Assembly: GCA_018060625.1 (NCBI GenBank)
Contig: JAGOVS010000002.1
Span: forward strand, 1 to 64,000
Length of the DNA: 64,000 bases
Direction: 5' to 3'
Origin: Bacteriovorax sp.
GTDB taxonomy: Bacteria; Bdellovibrionota; Bacteriovoracia; Bacteriovoracales; Bacteriovoracaceae
The notes beneath the pieces were generated by a model. The model did no database searches and had not been told where the DNA came from. It worked only from the letters and a program-made list of their open reading frames with translations. Position 1 is the stretch's first letter. Every line of letters begins with the position of its first letter. The position numbers were made by a program, and so were the translations under genes. Of the stretch, positions 16,436-24,595 are shown piece after piece.

Positions 16436-16525
16436 TTACGATTTCAACCTTAAGTATACGGCAAGCAAAAAAATGGCAACCGTGAGCGAAATTCCAATGA
16501 CGACGGTACGTGTATCTTTATCCAT
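16436..16525 (-). CDS. 29-residue single-span membrane peptide
   Basis: ATG at 16525, TAA at 16436-16438, sequence MDKDTRTVVIGISLTVAIFL... ending in a basic YLRLKS tail. Residues 8-24 form one hydrophobic span with acidic/basic flanks. A good AAGGA ribosome binding site lies about 9 bases before the ATG. The gene starts 16 bases after the stop of the adenylating-enzyme gene on the same strand, so it reads as the last gene of that operon. Too short for automatic gene callers. It could be a small partner of the exporter or of the reductase complex; this is inference. Confidence 0.6.
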   Translation of the reverse strand: MDKDTRTVVIGISLTVAIFLLAVYLRLKS

Positions 16526-16541
16526 GAGATCTCATCCTTTT

Positions 16542-17804
16542 TTATAATGAACGCCTATCGATAACTCTCTTTAATTTTCCTGTTCTTCCATTAGACTCGA
16601 GTTGATACATTTCGACAATTTCTACTTTAACCGGATGAATTAAGTGACGAGATAAGAGGTCGCCATAGGTCACTTTTTCTTTCTCAAAAGCAATAATCAC
16701 TCGTTCTACGATATTTAAATCTGTCACGGGCCCAATTCCAGCAATTCTCAAAATAAGCTCATCTTTGTTTTGATAATGCTCAAGAACCATTTGAAACTGA
16801 AGCCCACTGAATTCACTTAAGGTTTTTTTAATCATATCCCTTGTGTCTTCAAAGTAGACACTTATTGTTCCTAATCTTGCCGCCTCATCTGATCTTCCCT
16901 GTAATTTGAATTTGCGATGAGGAACTCCCTCGTCCTCTATCCACTCTGCCAGATCACCTGCAGGATAGCGAATGATAGGCATAAGCTTTCTGGTGAGATT
17001 TGTAATGAGGACTCGTCCCACACGATTGACTTCCCTAATAACCTCACTTGTCTCAGTATCAACAATTTCAATAATATTGGCCCCGTCAAATGGACGGTGT
17101 TCACCGTCCCCGCAGGATCGATCTGAGTACCCCAAAAGTCCCGCATCTACACTTGCATAACCAATGGATGCAATCTTTACATCTGGAAACATTTTAATTA
17201 GTGCCTCTTTTTGGTCAGGATAAAGTGATTCACCTGCAAAGAGAATTTTTCCAATTTTGACTAATGGATACTTATTCTTCTCTTTTTCATAAAACTCTAA
17301 AAGAGTTAATAGAGAAGATGGAACTCCCGCGATCACGTTTATGCAAAATTCTTCTAACGTTTTTAATATTTGATGAGGATCTGTAGCGCCAGCAATGGGA
17401 ACCTGGAGTAGTTTTTTTGATTCAACGGGAATAGATTGCAATGAATCCTTAATAAATATAAAGGACGAGTAAAGATCTCCAACATAAAAAAGATTAGCAA
17501 TCCTATCTTTATCATCAATAATTCCCTGATTAATCCCCCATCCAAAGATACTCGTAAAGCTCTGCCACTCCAAAGATGTAAAATAAGAAAATTTTGGAGC
17601 ACCAGTACTCCCTCCACTCTTGAAGACAATTCCCTCTCTTTCTGTGGAGGTTAACACGTCCCCTTTCCAGAATTGTGCCTGTTCCGTAATGGGCAAATCT
17701 GTAATTTGGCCATACGAAACCCCACTATAAAGTTCGCGATAGAAGGGTGAGTTTTTCCTCGCATAATCAATGATTTCATCCAAGGACCATTTCTGCTGTT
17801 CCAT
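16542..17804 (-). CDS. PaaK/LuxE-like AMP-forming adenylating enzyme
   Basis: A 420-residue protein of the phenylacetate-CoA ligase / acyl-protein synthetase group (ANL superfamily). The phosphate loop is KSGGSTGAPK near residues 62-71, the ribose/adenine region IGYASVDAG, the hinge region ITNLTRKLMPIIRYPAGDLA, and the catalytic C-terminal Lys NGRTGKLKRV. ATG 17804 is chosen: it is 1 base after the TAA of the upstream gene and has AGAGGATAT before it, whereas the longer frame to 17879 runs inside that gene. It is a paralogue of the C-terminal half of the neighbouring fusion protein (shared LFY-G--Y, SVDAG and TGKL blocks). It should activate a carboxylic acid as acyl-AMP; the substrate is unknown. 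Confidence 0.82.
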   Translation of the reverse strand: MEQQKWSLDEIIDYARKNSPFYRELYSGVSYGQITDLPITEQAQFWKGDVLTSTEREGIVFKSGGSTGAPKFSYFTSLEWQSFTSIFGWGINQGIIDDKDRIANLFYVGDLYSSFIFIKDSLQSIPVESKKLLQVPIAGATDPHQILKTLEEFCINVIAGVPSSLLTLLEFYEKEKNKYPLVKIGKILFAGESLYPDQKEALIKMFPDVKIASIGYASVDAGLLGYSDRSCGDGEHRPFDGANIIEIVDTETSEVIREVNRVGRVLITNLTRKLMPIIRYPAGDLAEWIEDEGVPHRKFKLQGRSDEAARLGTISVYFEDTRDMIKKTLSEFSGLQFQMVLEHYQNKDELILRIAGIGPVTDLNIVERVIIAFEKEKVTYGDLLSRHLIHPVKVEIVEMYQLESNGRTGKLKRVIDRRSL

Positions 17805-17805
17805 T

Positions 17806-20331
17806 TTATATCCTCTGATCAACGACACTTCGAAGCTTTCCCGTATTCGCACTAAAAATAAGTTCGTCTCTATCAACAAGTTTTACTATAAAAAGAATTA
17901 GTGCTTCTTTTGTAAAGGAATCATTAAGTTCGCTGTATTCGTTAATGATCACACTTAGTAAATCTTGCTCAGTCATTTCTTTATTGAATTTGTTTTCAAT
18001 GCTCAAAACAACCGTCTCCTTACCAATATGGCCTGAGCTTAGGAGCTGAACTTGAAATGATCCCTCAAAGTTAAATTGTTCAACTAAAATTTTTTGAAAT
18101 TTTTGATAACTCAAAAACGTAGCGCCAATTCGAAACACATCGCCCACTCTTCCTAAAAGCTCAAATCGTTTCCCTTTTCTTCCACATTCACAAGTATCAC
18201 ATAAAATCCGCCCCACATCCCCAATTGCGTAGCGCTCGATCTTCTGACCTCGCCTCACCTTTGAAGTAAATAACAAACGCCCAATATCACCTTTTTTGAC
18301 AGGATGGTCTTTTTCCATTTCGACAACTTCAAGGGAATGCAATCTTTCATGAAGATGATGGACACTCCCGACAGAGAACTCACACTGAAACCCTAACGGA
18401 CCAGCATCCACTGATCCATAACTCGCAGAACGAATAATTTGAACACCAAATTCATTCTGAAAATAATGTCTTTGTGATTCACTAAAATGCTCACCTCCGT
18501 AAAAGATCTTACGTATCCCATGATATTTCTTAAAAACATCCTTATTGACGTTAAAAAGCTGAATAATATAAGAAGGCATTCCCAATAAAGTATCTACTCG
18601 ATTATCAATAATAACTTGACCAACTTTTAAATAATCCAAGTTCGCACCCATGGGAAAGTGAACTGCTTGGAGTTTTTCTAAAATTGTAAAAAAACTAACG
18701 AATCCACCATATAAATTTCCAGCATAAAAAAGATTTATGCATCGATCCTCTTTAGGATCAAGTCCGGCCGCAAAGAGTCCCTCAGCAGCAAGATCCATTT
18801 GGCGATGATAATCATCATAAGTAAAAATGGACAACTTAGGGTCACCGGTACTTCCTCCACTGTTAAAGTAGAGATCCGAATAGAATTCATCAACCTTTTG
18901 ATTTTGAAAATCTTCTTTCTCCATGATTTTCACATTTTCTTGAAAGACTTCTTGTAATGTCATTTCAAAAGAATTTTTGTTTTTCATTAAATTGTAACTG
19001 ACGGAGTCACTGAAAGATATTCTTTGGCAAAATCGTTCTAAGGCAAACACCCCATCATGAGGTTCACCTATATAAGAATCTGTCATTTCGCCTAAGGATC
19101 GAATTCGCTGAACACCTGACAAAAATAGCGACTGAACCAATTCTTCTAATTCCTCTTTTCCTGCAGCCAACCCAACAGTTTGCAGATAAGACTTCAATGG
19201 TCGAAGGGAGGAATTCATATTCTTTCGAGAAAGGGGTTTCACCCAAATTGTCCTGAATAGTGGTGATACACTCAGAACCTCAGAGTCCTCAATGAAAATA
19301 CGCCAATCACTATTTTTCGATTGGATTAACTCACTTTTCCCTAGAATTGAATCAAGTCTCACCTGCTCACTACAAACTGTAAGCTCTGCACTTTCTTGCA
19401 TATTTGGCAAAACACGTTCAATCTGGGGGGAAATCTCCTCTAAGTGTACTGCTAAGGCGCGAGCAAAAATTCTAAGTTCATCAAAATGACTGTCCTCTAA
19501 GAATACACACTGAGGACTTGAGCAGGCCATTTGTTCATTGTTGCAAATTTCATATGCTAACCCCTTCAATACTTCATTATTCATGCTCATTTTTTTAGTT
19601 ATGTAACCAAAAGAAATTTTATGTCCCCACTCCACAAAGCGCGCATGTTTTGGTGCAAGATCTTTTAAGGACTTTAGACTTTCTTCACTTCCCCACGCCG
19701 ATACAACATCTGCAATTGATAATAAATCTCTTAAGAAAAGTTGGTCACTCGATGAGATTTTCCCGATTGTCACATATTGCTTTAACAACCCAGTTGTATC
19801 CATTAGACACATCTCATGAAAGAATAGGGACGCAAATGCACTATCCTTTCGTGCTAACTTCAAAACGTTCACGTTGCCACTTAACAACCCCTCAAGTACA
19901 GCAAGGACCCCAAGCAATGGAGAATTGTTAGGAGTAACGTGGACTAGAACCCCTAAAGGATGCCAAGCTTCAAAATGATTTTCCTTATACAAAATTCTTC
20001 TTAACTCAAAGGGAAAATCACTCCCAAGCTCTCTTTTTAGTTTATAACGAAGATTGCTAACTTTTAAAAATTCTTGAAGTGACTTCATGACCTGGGCAAC
20101 ATCTCTTTCGCCCATATTGGCTACGCCACTCAACTCCTTTTCTAACTTTTTATAAAAAAGCTCTTTTTCATTCAGCTTCTTTCCCATTTTTTCAACTAAG
20201 TCAAATAACCATTGATGAGAGAAGGCCCCTTGCCCCCAGCTCTGGTAGTCTTGTCTTTTTTCATAAAAATATTTTTTAAAATCTTCATCACTAACAAGAG
20301 ATCCATTCCAAAGATTATTAAAATGACTCAT
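17806..20331 (-). CDS. LuxC-type acyl reductase fused to a PaaK/LuxE-like adenylating domain
   Basis: An 841-residue two-part enzyme. Residues 1-445 match LuxC, the NADPH-dependent fatty acyl reductase: HPLGVLVHVTPNNSPLL, GLLSGNVNVLKLARKD (aldehyde-dehydrogenase-like fold), the acyl-accepting Cys in QMACSSPQ near residue 270, and EPHDGVFALERFCQ. Residues 460-841 form an adenylating domain: SGGSTGDPK near 491, YGSVDAGPLGF, a Cys cluster CDTCECGRKGK and the C-terminal TGKLRSVVDQR. A natural fusion would pass an activated acyl group to the reductase to yield an aldehyde. The start overlaps the luxE-like stop as ATGA, with AAGGTAG before it. No luxAB luciferase genes are near, so light production is not implied. 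Confidence 0.83.
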   Translation of the reverse strand: MSHFNNLWNGSLVSDEDFKKYFYEKRQDYQSWGQGAFSHQWLFDLVEKMGKKLNEKELFYKKLEKELSGVANMGERDVAQVMKSLQEFLKVSNLRYKLKRELGSDFPFELRRILYKENHFEAWHPLGVLVHVTPNNSPLLGVLAVLEGLLSGNVNVLKLARKDSAFASLFFHEMCLMDTTGLLKQYVTIGKISSSDQLFLRDLLSIADVVSAWGSEESLKSLKDLAPKHARFVEWGHKISFGYITKKMSMNNEVLKGLAYEICNNEQMACSSPQCVFLEDSHFDELRIFARALAVHLEEISPQIERVLPNMQESAELTVCSEQVRLDSILGKSELIQSKNSDWRIFIEDSEVLSVSPLFRTIWVKPLSRKNMNSSLRPLKSYLQTVGLAAGKEELEELVQSLFLSGVQRIRSLGEMTDSYIGEPHDGVFALERFCQRISFSDSVSYNLMKNKNSFEMTLQEVFQENVKIMEKEDFQNQKVDEFYSDLYFNSGGSTGDPKLSIFTYDDYHRQMDLAAEGLFAAGLDPKEDRCINLFYAGNLYGGFVSFFTILEKLQAVHFPMGANLDYLKVGQVIIDNRVDTLLGMPSYIIQLFNVNKDVFKKYHGIRKIFYGGEHFSESQRHYFQNEFGVQIIRSASYGSVDAGPLGFQCEFSVGSVHHLHERLHSLEVVEMEKDHPVKKGDIGRLLFTSKVRRGQKIERYAIGDVGRILCDTCECGRKGKRFELLGRVGDVFRIGATFLSYQKFQKILVEQFNFEGSFQVQLLSSGHIGKETVVLSIENKFNKEMTEQDLLSVIINEYSELNDSFTKEALILFIVKLVDRDELIFSANTGKLRSVVDQRI

Positions 20332-21497
20332 AAAGATCTACCTTTTAAAAGCTCACTCGCGGCCAGTGCGCAGCTTTTGTTTTTTGAAATACCGGCCCTT
20401 CCATGAATTTTAAAATAGGGAGTCAATAGGCCGCAACCACAAGACTCAGGTGCATGAAGTGAGGCCATGTCTCCCATTATAACTGAGTGAGCAGGCATTG
20501 AAGTTATATAAGGGGAAACAAAATGCAGAAATCCCAATTGATTAAAACCCAATGGACGCAATGTTTTTACATCCCTGATAAACAAACGTGACCAAACGGG
20601 AACATGGAATTGATGATTTTTGCATTCTACATATGGAACACAATGTTCAACTGAACCAAATCCATCGCGAAGTCTCTCATTTGGAATTCCAAGCATATCT
20701 TCTACAAGCGCATAGAATAACTCTTTCGAAATGGCCTTATCGGCATTCCCCTTCCACCCACCGCCAAGAAAAACTAAAGAATCAGGATGAAGCTTAATTG
20801 GAGAAATTCCTAACTTTTTCATCCTCTCTAAAGCAAAAAATAAAAAAGCAGGAAAACCAAATATCCTCACGGGTATTTTAGATTTAGAAAATTTTATAAG
20901 AGATTCTATTGTTCCAAAACAATCAAATTCATGCTCTCCTGATCCTGTTAACTTGAGAGCATAAAAGACCTCTTGAATAGGGGCATATTTACATAAAAAA
21001 TTATCAGTATAGGCCGTGCCCAATTTGGAGGAGCAATCTGTCTCGTAACTAAAAAGCACATAATTACATTTTTGCTCTGGTGTAATCCATTTATAATACT
21101 CGAAGATGGAATCCACCATTTTCTGGGCAGCTTTAATAGTCCATTCATCAAAAAAAATTTGTGATTTTTGTCCTGTTGTACCCGAAGAAGTTAAATGCAA
21201 GAAAACATCTTCTTTTTGTATAGTCAGAATTTCATGGGATTTGAAAAAATGTGCCCATAGATGAGGAATCAATAGGCAGTCATCTATAGTTTTTATATCG
21301 TCAACTTGAAACTTTATTGAAGCGGCCAATTTATTATAAAAATCGCAATTTTCTAAATGCCAGATTGTAATTTCTTTCATCGCCTGGATAAAATCGTCAT
21401 CTTGATTCTGACCTAACAGATAAGGGGAGGTTTGTTCACAAACCTTTTGGACTGTTTTTAGTTTTTTTGAATGTGGAACATCAACTTTTTGATTCAT
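20328..21497 (-). CDS. LuxE-family acyl-protein synthetase
   Basis: A 389-residue protein of the LuxE family, which adenylates a fatty acid and carries it as a thioester for LuxC. Seen: PHLWAHFFKSHEILT, the phosphate loop LTSSGTTGQKSQIFFD near residue 105, RIFGFPAFLFF, FLGGGWKG, RDGFGSVEHCVPY and, near the C-terminus, CGCGLLTPYFKIHGR, which contains cysteines at the place of the LuxE acyl-accepting Cys. The ATG at 21497 is preferred to a TTG at 21509 because GAGG lies six bases before it. It overlaps the GNAT gene by 17 bases and the fusion gene by 4, so it is strictly coupled to both. Confidence 0.83.
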   Translation of the reverse strand: MNQKVDVPHSKKLKTVQKVCEQTSPYLLGQNQDDDFIQAMKEITIWHLENCDFYNKLAASIKFQVDDIKTIDDCLLIPHLWAHFFKSHEILTIQKEDVFLHLTSSGTTGQKSQIFFDEWTIKAAQKMVDSIFEYYKWITPEQKCNYVLFSYETDCSSKLGTAYTDNFLCKYAPIQEVFYALKLTGSGEHEFDCFGTIESLIKFSKSKIPVRIFGFPAFLFFALERMKKLGISPIKLHPDSLVFLGGGWKGNADKAISKELFYALVEDMLGIPNERLRDGFGSVEHCVPYVECKNHQFHVPVWSRLFIRDVKTLRPLGFNQLGFLHFVSPYITSMPAHSVIMGDMASLHAPESCGCGLLTPYFKIHGRAGISKNKSCALAASELLKGRSL

Positions 21498-22650
21498 ATA
21501 CAACCTCAATAGTGTCTAGATTGACTCGTTTCCAGGCATCTACATACTGGTCAATGAAGGGTTTAAACTGAGAAACAACGGCCATTCCATGAAAGTTAAG
21601 CGGCTCCATTGTTCTGCTCATGACTATGTAATCTTCAAAGTTTTGATTCACCTCTCTCATCGCAGGATAAATCGCTGAAGGGAGAAATTGTCCGGTTAAA
21701 AGTGTATCAATCAGAGATGTATGTTTGATATTAACTAACACTTCAATGTACGAAACTCCAATATCATCCAGTTGCATATACAAACTAGGCAATCTCCCAT
21801 TTAAAATTGAAAATTGATTTGTTGCCTTGATAAAAGTGCAATAACCATCACGCTTACTAAAATATGCAAAAATATCCATTCGACCTTTTTTTTCCGATAT
21901 AAGCATATTTGGCGAATGAAAGGGAAAAAAACGATCGTCAGGATCAGGGAATTGCTCAGTAAATTTTCTATAGACAAAATTAGGCGCTCTTATAATCTCA
22001 AATTCCCAATCACTTTCAAATTCTTGATAGGATATTGCCTGAGCCTCCATTCTTATTGGAATTTCAATTTGCGGAACTAGCCTTTTTAAAATCTCAAAAA
22101 GTGGCATGATTTTGGAAGAGGCATTGGCCACGGGGATACGCTTCTCTAAAATATTTTCTCTAAATTTAGCAAAAAGCGTAACTGTCTCATAATGATGAAG
22201 TCGATGAGCATTTGGAAAAATGCCTAATGGGAGATAATTATTTTTAATAAAAATCAGCTGCGGTCCAACTGCAATTGTTCTCGTTGTTGCATACAGTGAA
22301 TTAAGACGTGAGTCTTTATTTAAAAAAAAATCACTCACGAATTCAACTAGGCTATTGCCTATTTTATGTCTCTGAAAAGTTGGATGAACAACAAGGCCTG
22401 TGAGTTTACCAATCTTATTAAAAGTATCCATTTCTACAATCAGAACACCCGCCAGATTGTTATTAAGAAGATCTCTTGCGACCATGCATAAATGTGTTTC
22501 TTTATTCTTAATTGATCGTTTTAGAAGATCTGGATCTGTCCCGTAATTAATAGGGTATTTTCTACCATAAACAGCTCGGTAAAGATTGATAACGTCATCG
22601 ACATCGCTGATTTTAGCTTCTTCAATATTAAATTTTATTAGATTTTCCAT
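21481..22650 (-). CDS. GNAT acyltransferase with a long C-terminal domain
   Basis: A 389-residue protein. Residues 8-160 form a GNAT domain (motif A GLVVHPTFQRHKIGNSLVEF near 85-105, with the Q/R-x-x-G loop). The remaining 220 residues have mixed alpha/beta character and may be a second, degenerate GNAT-like or substrate-binding half; I see no second acetyl-CoA loop. AAGGATCTTT precedes the ATG and the start overlaps the MFS stop by 13 bases. In this operon it could acylate an amine with the activated acyl group or with acetyl-CoA, but that is inference. Confidence 0.75.
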   Translation of the reverse strand: MENLIKFNIEEAKISDVDDVINLYRAVYGRKYPINYGTDPDLLKRSIKNKETHLCMVARDLLNNNLAGVLIVEMDTFNKIGKLTGLVVHPTFQRHKIGNSLVEFVSDFFLNKDSRLNSLYATTRTIAVGPQLIFIKNNYLPLGIFPNAHRLHHYETVTLFAKFRENILEKRIPVANASSKIMPLFEILKRLVPQIEIPIRMEAQAISYQEFESDWEFEIIRAPNFVYRKFTEQFPDPDDRFFPFHSPNMLISEKKGRMDIFAYFSKRDGYCTFIKATNQFSILNGRLPSLYMQLDDIGVSYIEVLVNIKHTSLIDTLLTGQFLPSAIYPAMREVNQNFEDYIVMSRTMEPLNFHGMAVVSQFKPFIDQYVDAWKRVNLDTIEVVYESKS

Positions 22651-23864
22651 AAAGATCCTTTTAAAAATTTAGGCATTGCTAGGGCAATGACAATGACAAT
22701 GCACCCACTCAATTTTGCAAAATTAGGCATATACACATGTGGAAATAGCAAACCTGAAAATCCAAAAGAAAGAGGAATTGTTGCCGCACTGATAATATTG
22801 ACAGCGCTCATGACAGCAGGAAGCTCATGGGCGAGAGTTGCTGATTGAAAATAAGTGAGCACTTGAATATTGAGAAAAGTGCTTATGGCCCCAACTGCAA
22901 AGAGAATACCGGCCCCTTGCCAAGAAAATTGTGAATAAGCAAATAGGAGTAAGAATACTCCAAATAAAAATGAGACGAAAGCAATCATGGTCATTCTTTT
23001 TTCGTCTTTGACTCGAAAACTTGCTATCGACAAGTATAACCCCGTTAAGAAAGCACCCAGTCCCATTGAACCTTCAATCATTGCTAATGAGCTTGCATCT
23101 CCTAAATATTTATTTTGTACAAACCAAGGGATCATGACCAAGAGTGGAGTAAAAACAAGATTAAGAAATAAAAAACTGCCTAGCATATTTGCGATTTCTG
23201 GATACTTTCTCAAAACCTCCATTGTCCCTATGCTCTTTTCTTCATCCCATTCCTTTCTCTCATCTTCATTTGGTTTTATTTTAATCCCTAATTGTAAAAA
23301 GCCGGCCCATAGAAAACTTAATCCATTAATTAAAATGAGCGTTTTAAAATCAACAAAATTTAAAATAAAAATGGCGAACATTGCTCCGAGGATTGTTGAG
23401 ATCGAAAGACTTGTATCTATGAGTGCATTAAGTCCCATAACTTTTTCTTCATTAACCAACTTAGGAGGTAATGATAGAATGGCGGGAGTGAAAAGACTTG
23501 ACCCAAGACCCACCAAGAAACCAGATACGAATAGAGCAGTTAGGAGTTTATCGCCATCAAGCGATCGCATCCCAAGTAAAGAATAAAGAGACAAAAGTAC
23601 AATTGCCCTAAAAAATTCAGAAGCAATGACCGTGTTTAAAACTCCCAAGCGCTTAATCACATGAACAGAATGAAATGACATTAACAAATGTGGTAAAAAG
23701 CAAACTGCCATATACCAAGGAATAATATTAATAGAAAATTTCTGAGCGAGATACCAGATAAGACCTATGGACATCATCTTGTCACAGATGGTGGAGACCA
23801 ATTGTGAAGCAAAGACCAAGAGGGCATTTTTGTCCTTTAAAACTGTTAAATTGATAGTACTCAT
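22638..23864 (-). CDS. MFS transporter, probable exporter
   Basis: A 408-residue inner-membrane protein with 11-12 hydrophobic segments. The layout resembles the drug/enterobactin-exporter branch of the major facilitator family (N-terminal LVSTICDKMMSIGLIWYLA, ALFVSGFLVGLGSSLFTPAILS, loop RKEWDEEKS between the halves). It is the first transporter-class gene of the LuxC/LuxE-type operon and overlaps the GNAT gene, so it most likely exports the pathway product. No good Shine-Dalgarno sequence is visible before the ATG. The receiver gene lies 61 bases upstream on the same strand and may belong to the same transcript. Confidence 0.82.
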   Translation of the reverse strand: MSTINLTVLKDKNALLVFASQLVSTICDKMMSIGLIWYLAQKFSINIIPWYMAVCFLPHLLMSFHSVHVIKRLGVLNTVIASEFFRAIVLLSLYSLLGMRSLDGDKLLTALFVSGFLVGLGSSLFTPAILSLPPKLVNEEKVMGLNALIDTSLSISTILGAMFAIFILNFVDFKTLILINGLSFLWAGFLQLGIKIKPNEDERKEWDEEKSIGTMEVLRKYPEIANMLGSFLFLNLVFTPLLVMIPWFVQNKYLGDASSLAMIEGSMGLGAFLTGLYLSIASFRVKDEKRMTMIAFVSFLFGVFLLLFAYSQFSWQGAGILFAVGAISTFLNIQVLTYFQSATLAHELPAVMSAVNIISAATIPLSFGFSGLLFPHVYMPNFAKLSGCIVIVIALAMPKFLKGSLWKI

Positions 23865-23925: not shown

Positions 23926-24279
23926 TTAGTCGATTAATGATAGCAAGCGAGTGGCTAATTGACTCGCCACTAATGGCTTTGGCAAAAAAATCTTCACTCT
24001 CTTTTCAATAATTTGACGCTCTGACTCTTCACCCAATGCAACAAGTTTGTTTTTTGGCCACAAATGACATAATTCGTCTAAATGATGGGCCACCGTAGAG
24101 ACATCGAAAATAACGAGATCAGGCGCTAAGTCATCTAAAAGATAGAAGTTGTTTTCTAGTGTGGCCACGGTATAAACCTGGGCCCCTTTCGCTCTTAAAG
24201 CAAATTCCATGGTTGAACGTAAAAATTCAACCTTATCAATGTAAAAAAATTTTCTAAGAGACTCTTCCGTCTTTACCAT
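23926..24279 (-). CDS. degenerate receiver-domain protein
   Basis: A 117-residue protein with the size and pattern of a lone response-regulator receiver domain. The putative phospho-acceptor is D in DLVIFDVST near residue 59 and the Lys is in FLPKPL near 101. The usual N-terminal acidic pair is reduced to a single Asp in FFYIDKVEF, and the Thr/Ser site is VALGEE rather than V-x-S/T-A. Phosphorylation may thus be weak or lost. It lies 61 bases upstream of the MFS gene, same strand, and may be the leading gene of that operon. The divergent gene at 24308 starts only 28 bases away. Confidence 0.65.
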   Translation of the reverse strand: MVKTEESLRKFFYIDKVEFLRSTMEFALRAKGAQVYTVATLENNFYLLDDLAPDLVIFDVSTVAHHLDELCHLWPKNKLVALGEESERQIIEKRVKIFLPKPLVASQLATRLLSLID

Positions 24280-24307: not shown

Positions 24308-24595
24308 ATGTCAAACAACGTTCAAGTCATAGACAATATTTCTGGTTCTATTCTTTTTGAAACCAGTGTCGAAAAATTAAATGAAGCTTATGCTTTTGCA
24401 GAAATGATGGAAAATGAGGGACTGGATATTAATATCCTAGCTCCCGGATTAGCTGAAACACTTATCAGTTCACTGGGGGCAGACGCTCAAGAAATCGCCG
24501 ACTACAAACGAGGTCTCGACTCTGAAATTGCTTCACATGAAGATGATTCAGGCTGTGCAATCTGTCCACCAACTCAGACCAGTAATTCTCCATAA
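24308..24595 (+). CDS. small acidic protein with C-terminal CxxC
   Basis: A 95-residue acidic cytoplasmic protein, divergent from the degenerate receiver gene. It has a beta-rich N-terminus (VQVIDNISGSILFETS), a long helix (NEAYAFAEMMENEGLD), a hydrophobic PGLAETLISSLGA, an acidic helix and a tail with SGCAICPP (C-x-x-C), which could bind a metal or be redox active. The stop is 9 bases before the end of the convergent methyltransferase gene. I do not recognise the family. Confidence 0.65.
   Translation: MSNNVQVIDNISGSILFETSVEKLNEAYAFAEMMENEGLDINILAPGLAETLISSLGADAQEIADYKRGLDSEIASHEDDSGCAICPPTQTSNSP

Follow-up and report, generated by a model that had tools for sequence, protein, structure and literature searches.

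A luciferase-free LuxE/LuxC operon of Bacteriovorax as a candidate pathway to a leupeptin-type peptide aldehyde

Introduction

Fatty aldehyde synthesis is the best-known role of the LuxC and LuxE families, and their presence in a bacterium that has no luciferase gene raises the question of what else they may be making. Here we address this question for a locus of Bacteriovorax sp., a predator of the phylum Bdellovibrionota. The window analysed is a stretch of 64,000 nucleotides (assembly GCA_018060625.1, contig JAGOVS010000002.1, positions 1 to 64,000), in which a tightly spaced five-gene operon on the minus strand (16542-23864) encodes an MFS exporter, a GNAT N-acetyltransferase, a LuxE-type ligase, a LuxC reductase fused to a PaaK-like ligase, and a second PaaK-type ligase (PaaK2). 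Since the list of parts, with intact motifs, fits published leupeptin biosynthesis, and since layout and a producer strain point the same way, we propose that the operon probably makes and exports a short, N-acetylated peptide aldehyde resembling leupeptin, by a route free of non-ribosomal peptide synthetase (NRPS). A previous reading of the same DNA, hereafter the original prediction, had favoured a small acyl-derived molecule (aldehyde, alcohol or N-acyl amine) acting as a signal, a toxin or an envelope lipid.

Organisation of the operon and its catalytic parts

The five genes are the following:

22638..23864, minus strand: MFS exporter, 408 aa, TIGR00900 / MFS_3 type, EntS-like (PF07690 (MFS_1) E=3.3e-25; TIGR00900 E=1.9e-27)
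21481..22650, minus strand: GNAT N-acetyltransferase, 389 aa (PF00583 E=2e-6)
20328..21497 from its ATG, minus strand: LuxE-type acyl-protein ligase, 389 aa (PF04443 E=3.6e-29)
17806..20331, minus strand: LuxC reductase (residues ~42-436) fused to a PaaK-like ligase (~470-840) (PF05893 E=4.6e-87)
16542..17804, minus strand: PaaK2, free-standing PaaK-like ligase, 420 aa (PaaK-type NCBIfam models)

The MFS and GNAT genes overlap by 13 bases, GNAT and LuxE by 17, and LuxE and LuxC-PaaK by 4, while a single base separates LuxC-PaaK from PaaK2. The original prediction counted six open reading frames (ORFs), the sixth being a microprotein discussed below, and all six lie at the positions and with the exact spacings it gave. 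Its assignment of LuxC and LuxE agrees with the Pfam matches listed above, and its view of an aldehyde-forming pair that works without luciferase is upheld in the source genome, a draft that is 90.8% complete and in which no homologue of bacterial luciferase (PF00296) was found.

LuxE carries a TSSGTTG P-loop and, in the motif SCALAASEL, a C-terminal acyl-acceptor cysteine. It aligns nearly end to end with the LuxE of the solved LuxC-LuxE complex, the fatty acid reductase of luminous bacteria (7xc6), with this cysteine in register. The LuxC-PaaK fusion matches 7xc6 as well as PaaK structures, so that both reductase subunits are homologous to those of luminous bacteria over most of their length, whereas here LuxC is fused to a PaaK ligase. 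In the alignment of the fusion family, LuxC Cys270, the P-loop SGGS, YGSVDAGP, D705 and K832 are invariant or nearly so. With an acceptor cysteine in LuxE and Cys270 in LuxC, the operon is predicted to hold a reductase that gives an aldehyde.

Both PaaK-like units fall below the Pfam AMP-binding cut-off, and therefore profile and structure checks were added. In NCBIfam the hits of both are to PaaK-type models (E=4e-17 to 4e-25), and here too the scores stay under the curated thresholds. The PaaK2 family profile matches PaaK structures (E=1.9e-29), and the best PDB matches of the PaaK2 AlphaFold model (pLDDT 89) are PaaK ligases (Foldseek E=1e-27); in the family alignment the P-loop GG, D285 and K411 are invariant or nearly so. 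Relative to known PaaK-family ligases (PaaK1/2, NatL2, AjiA1, ClxA), PaaK2 has the same predicted fold, and both units contain the P-loop, A7, A8 and A10 motifs, whereas the glutamate of the A5 motif is replaced by aspartate (YGSVDAGP / YASVDAGL).

The AlphaFold model of the GNAT (pLDDT 90.5) finds SpeG/ArsN-type N-acetyltransferases in the PDB. Its N-terminal domain resembles N-acetyltransferases of the polyamine and amino-acid type, the predicted order of strands and helices in its C-terminal half follows the GNAT pattern, and its profile places N-alpha-acetyltransferases on top, as a weak match (E=4.6e-5). The notion that the three adenylating units act jointly with the acyltransferase and the exporter to make and export a small molecule is judged right.

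Comparison with leupeptin biosynthesis

In Xenorhabdus bovienii, according to PMC11212599 (citing Li et al. 2020), leupeptin is made by a non-NRPS route: its amide bonds are the work of separate AMP-dependent ligases, and its aldehyde that of a reductase. The window operon likewise contains two separate AMP-dependent ligases without NRPS modules, along with a predicted reductase. In K. oxytoca, leupABCD spans 5.83 kb and has a transporter adjacent to it (PMC8283571). The cassette homologues of enterobacteria are built in the same manner, as four genes in the order LuxE - LuxC/PaaK - PaaK - GNAT over 5.76-5.82 kb, with an MFS gene upstream in several of them, and so share size and layout with leupABCD as far as this operon is described for Xenorhabdus, Photorhabdus and Klebsiella (Li et al. 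2020 via PMC11212599, PMC8283571, PMC11480411). The window holds the same gene set plus MFS in another order; it differs from leupABCD, within the same descriptions, in that its GNAT is of a longer tandem type and placed first instead of last, its MFS belongs to another subfamily, and its carrier is a Bdellovibrionota predator. Indeed, MFS genes of two subfamilies accompany the cassette: those of enterobacteria are of MdfA type instead of TIGR00900 type, and the MFS beside the cassette of Streptomyces sp. NBC_00158 matches TIGR00900 (2.8e-27), the same model as the Bacteriovorax exporter.

The translations of published leup primers agree in part with the homologues. The sense strand of the leupB primer reads EQLKDHA, and the LuxC protein of locus L204 has EQLKETLA at residues 19-26, near the expected start of leupB if leupA is a LuxE gene of 1.13-1.16 kb; the other pair is MKIAIHN and MSVDMQN. 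No real match to the leup primers came from a class-wide pattern search or from scanning the enterobacterial loci with the primer.

Moreover, the documented leupeptin producer Streptomyces roseus ATCC 31245 (PMC10548850) has the full cassette in one run (L140), in the order PaaK-MFS-GNAT-LuxE-LuxC/PaaK, which differs from that of the window. Its LuxE is 53% identical to the window protein and its tandem GNAT belongs to the same family, with 34% identity; the cluster is tied to leupeptin by co-presence in the strain. The expected product class is also that of antipain, MAPI and flavopeptin, which are made by NRPS, and of livipeptin, which depends on tRNA (PMC10548850), whereas profile searches of the window operon found no NRPS, carrier protein or tRNA-dependent transferase among its genes. 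Literature searches returned no paper on LuxC, LuxE and PaaK together, and none on LuxC in natural-product work.

Conservation in the genus and the family

The LuxC fusion was matched in 54 of the 144 genomes searched, and within the genus in 12 of 14, the window genome included. The GNAT, searched independently of the fusion, was found in 50 genomes, 49 of which also have the fusion. The order GNAT-LuxE-LuxC/PaaK-PaaK is kept across genera in which the fusion is ~40-46% identical to that of the window, while the flanking genes vary; this set is a discrete cassette, and the gene order is conserved far beyond the genus among the relatives searched. Ahead of the cassette, the genus loci have the MFS gene and a small ORF of receiver-like sequence.

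Other genera of the family carry a one-ligase form composed of GNAT, LuxE and LuxC/PaaK (L070, L073-L078, L082-L083). In this group (e.g. L073-L078) no second ligase was found near the locus or elsewhere in the genome at E<=1e-10, and a shorter product would be expected from this form. In a member of the Bdellovibrionaceae (UBA5009; L093:9998-12499) LuxC and PaaK are unfused and encoded by two ORFs next to each other.

Spread beyond the phylum

When named genomes were scanned with an alignment, 248 relatives were retrieved; a single-sequence scan of the same genome contigs with the LuxC fusion gave no match. Among the best 80 of the 248 are Bacteriovorax and other Bdellovibrionota, Massilia, Azonexus, Azorhizobium, Streptomyces, Kutzneria, Crossiella and others, and in most of them GNAT, LuxE, the LuxC fusion and PaaK2 are found together. 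The cassette has an MFS gene beside it in Massilia (GNAT-MFS-LuxE), most Streptomyces (PaaK2-MFS-GNAT), several further Bdellovibrionota and the window genus. In the flanks of the loci compared, no other gene accompanies the cassette across phyla.

This bears on three further readings of the product. In the first, LuxE and LuxC would reduce a long-chain acid to the aldehyde, the ligases and the GNAT would yield an N-acyl amine or similar compound, and the MFS would export it. Both families are clearly matched, but LuxE scores 96.2 bits where the curated cut-off of the luminescence enzymes, which act on long chains, is 550, and LuxC 85.5 bits where it is 750. The likeness of the GNAT is to acetyltransferases of the polyamine, amino-acid and N-alpha types, the cassette has no recognisable fatty-acid gene as a companion across phyla, and the same gene set is present in a leupeptin producer. 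This account is unlikely; a fatty aldehyde is probably the wrong product, given how short both enzymes fall of the luminescence cut-offs and that peptide-aldehyde biosynthesis offers the nearest functional parallel. An N-acyl product, one of the options of the original prediction, is retained, but the fatty acid substrate and the lipid-type signal or envelope lipid are probably to be abandoned.

In the second, the PaaK-like ligases would act on aromatic acids, and LuxE and LuxC would form an aryl aldehyde, leading to an aryl-acid or aryl-amide product. The closest solved PaaK relatives do use phenylacetate or hydroxybenzoates, but the same lack of travelling companions means that no aromatic-acid pathway goes with the cassette, which is moreover found in the leupeptin producer, and we hold this product to be very improbable. 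In the third, the locus would modify flagellin or O-antigen, processes in which LuxC/LuxE homologues also occur; this was set aside because no further gene travels with the cassette across phyla. An anti-phage defence system was also rejected, as PADLOC gave no meaningful match, with one weak chance match of the MFS to ZorA.

In Azonexus, Comamonas, Paenacidovorax, a Contendobacter metagenome-assembled genome (MAG) and a Bacteroidota-labelled MAG, a longer protein replaces the GNAT. Such longer proteins, in place of or beside the GNAT, were seen at:

L108:13757-15265, by domain match
L099:5186-6676, by domain match
L159:13504-15252, by sequence likeness or reading
L166:13503-15185, similar by sequence or by reading
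L109:13771-15243, similar by sequence or by reading
L079:10309-11778, similar by sequence or by reading

In L108 and L099, the two that were scanned, an RsbW-like ATPase domain is joined to a GNAT domain. A Cache-HAMP-SpoIIE phosphatase lies upstream of the variant cassette in L159, and a SpoIIE-type phosphatase upstream of it in Comamonas; these parts suggest partner-switching control of the pathway. The coupling to such regulators in some relatives would suit a peptide- or amino-acid-derived signal, in which the aldehyde would be just an intermediate and go on to cyclise into a pyrazinone autoinducer, and leupeptin-derived pyrazinones are indeed autoinducers in Klebsiella (PMC11480411). Such a role does not conflict with a peptide aldehyde and could go along with it. 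The operon of the window genus, however, has no sensor or regulator linked to it except the small receiver-like ORF, nor did the analysis give evidence of the protease step that pyrazinone release needs, so a signal of this kind appears quite unlikely.

The cassette also occurs on plasmids of Salmonella. The LuxC/PaaK fusion was found on CP054717.1 (L167) and CP053580.1 of Salmonella enterica, one of the two being typed as conjugative; on CP054717.1 the whole cassette is preceded by a truncated MFS gene and sits in a stretch that also holds genes for recombinases and toxin-antitoxin systems. The fusion has a close homologue in 30 of 30 species of one enterobacterial genus (that of L174, L175 and G691), and is therefore close to a core trait of this genus. 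A DNA search of plasmids gave no match, nor did a DNA search of E. coli genomes with the Salmonella cassette, and a phage collection gave one match, to LuxC only.

Across phyla no member of the cassette is better conserved than LuxE, which is proposed to act on the residue that becomes the aldehyde: the window protein is 49-58% identical to representative loci (49-51% to the enterobacterial homologues), as against 37-47% for PaaK2. In a LuxE tree of 111 rows, built by a quick method with SH-aLRT support only, the actinomycete rows form one clade and the enterobacterial rows another, both inside a supported group (95) in which a few Bdellovibrionota rows also fall; the remaining Bdellovibrionota rows, the one-ligase group included, are the most diverse. 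An origin of the cassette in Bdellovibrionota is suggested rather than shown by this tree, since the root is a midpoint root and several branches are long.

Genes flanking the operon

Two further features adjoin the five genes, and a third lies beyond them:

16436-16525, minus strand: 29-residue single-pass microprotein MDKDTRTVVIGISLTVAIFLLAVYLRLKS, with a 16-base gap from PaaK2
23926..24279, minus strand: receiver (CheY)-like ORF, 117 aa, 61 bp upstream of the MFS gene, assigned by sequence reading and with no family match
24308-24595, plus strand: divergent 95-aa ORF of no known family

The microprotein, which had been counted as a member of the operon, is kept in every one of the 10 loci of the genus whose sequence extends to the hflX 3' end, where it sits near, or overlaps, the end of that gene. 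Single-base codon differences over all pairs comprise 303 synonymous and 140 non-synonymous changes, and by this comparison the microprotein is a real gene under purifying selection. In L034, L036 and L037, other sequence separates it from the PaaK2 gene, which is 0.8-3.8 kb away, while the microprotein remains at the hflX 3' end. It is linked to hflX, and it falls outside the operon because it stays with hflX where other genes intervene.

The receiver-like ORF, missing from the gene list of the original prediction, precedes the exporter gene in the genus and probably opens the unit, an arrangement limited to this genus. Both it and the divergent ORF adjoin the operon throughout the genus. A sigma-70-like match (10/12) lies at 24314-24286; such matches are no commoner here than in shuffled sequences.

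Proposed pathway

For the substrates, the order of steps, the product and its biological role, we infer from the encoded enzymes the following scheme. Two amide bonds would be made by the two PaaK-like ligases, LuxC-fused and free, through adenylation of amino acids or peptides. With acetyl-CoA as donor, the GNAT would acetylate the amine of the N-terminal residue (N-alpha-acetylation). LuxE would adenylate the C-terminal carboxyl and hold the thioester on its own C-terminal cysteine, from which LuxC would receive the acyl group on its own cysteine and reduce it with NADPH to the aldehyde; the MFS protein would then export the product. A tripeptide aldehyde is the most likely product; its C-terminal residue is plausibly basic, as it is in leupeptin (acetyl-Leu-Leu-argininal), and the compound may act outside the cell as an inhibitor of serine and cysteine proteases.

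Several points weigh against this scheme. PaaK-type enzymes frequently yield CoA esters and not amides. The GNAT of the enterobacterial operons is shorter than the tandem GNAT, against which it scores just 15-17 bits in a profile comparison. The equation of the cassette with leup is drawn from size, layout, a primer translation and one producer strain. Finally, the link with S. roseus is correlative, because some Streptomyces make leupeptin-like aldehydes through NRPS (PMC10548850, PMC11212599) and S. roseus could use another cluster.

Significance

A wider picture is possible, though we hold it only tentatively: a mobile NRPS-free cassette may have its chief reservoir, and perhaps its origin, in the Bdellovibrionota, with later spread to actinomycetes and Enterobacterales. 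In this cassette the number of PaaK units would set the length of the product (one giving dipeptide and two giving tripeptide aldehydes), and with the inhibitors so made predators might control the proteolysis of prey digestion or fight rivals.

The variants described here (one ligase or two, LuxC-PaaK split or fused, GNAT fused to a regulator) form a natural ladder for studying NRPS-free peptide assembly. If the proposed pathway is correct, a puzzling LuxC/LuxE operon without luciferase would be explained, and widespread unnamed LuxE/LuxC/PaaK/GNAT genes of several phyla would gain a testable function. Leupeptin itself is a standard laboratory protease inhibitor; predators that live by digesting bacteria would then, across much of the family, also make and export protease inhibitors.

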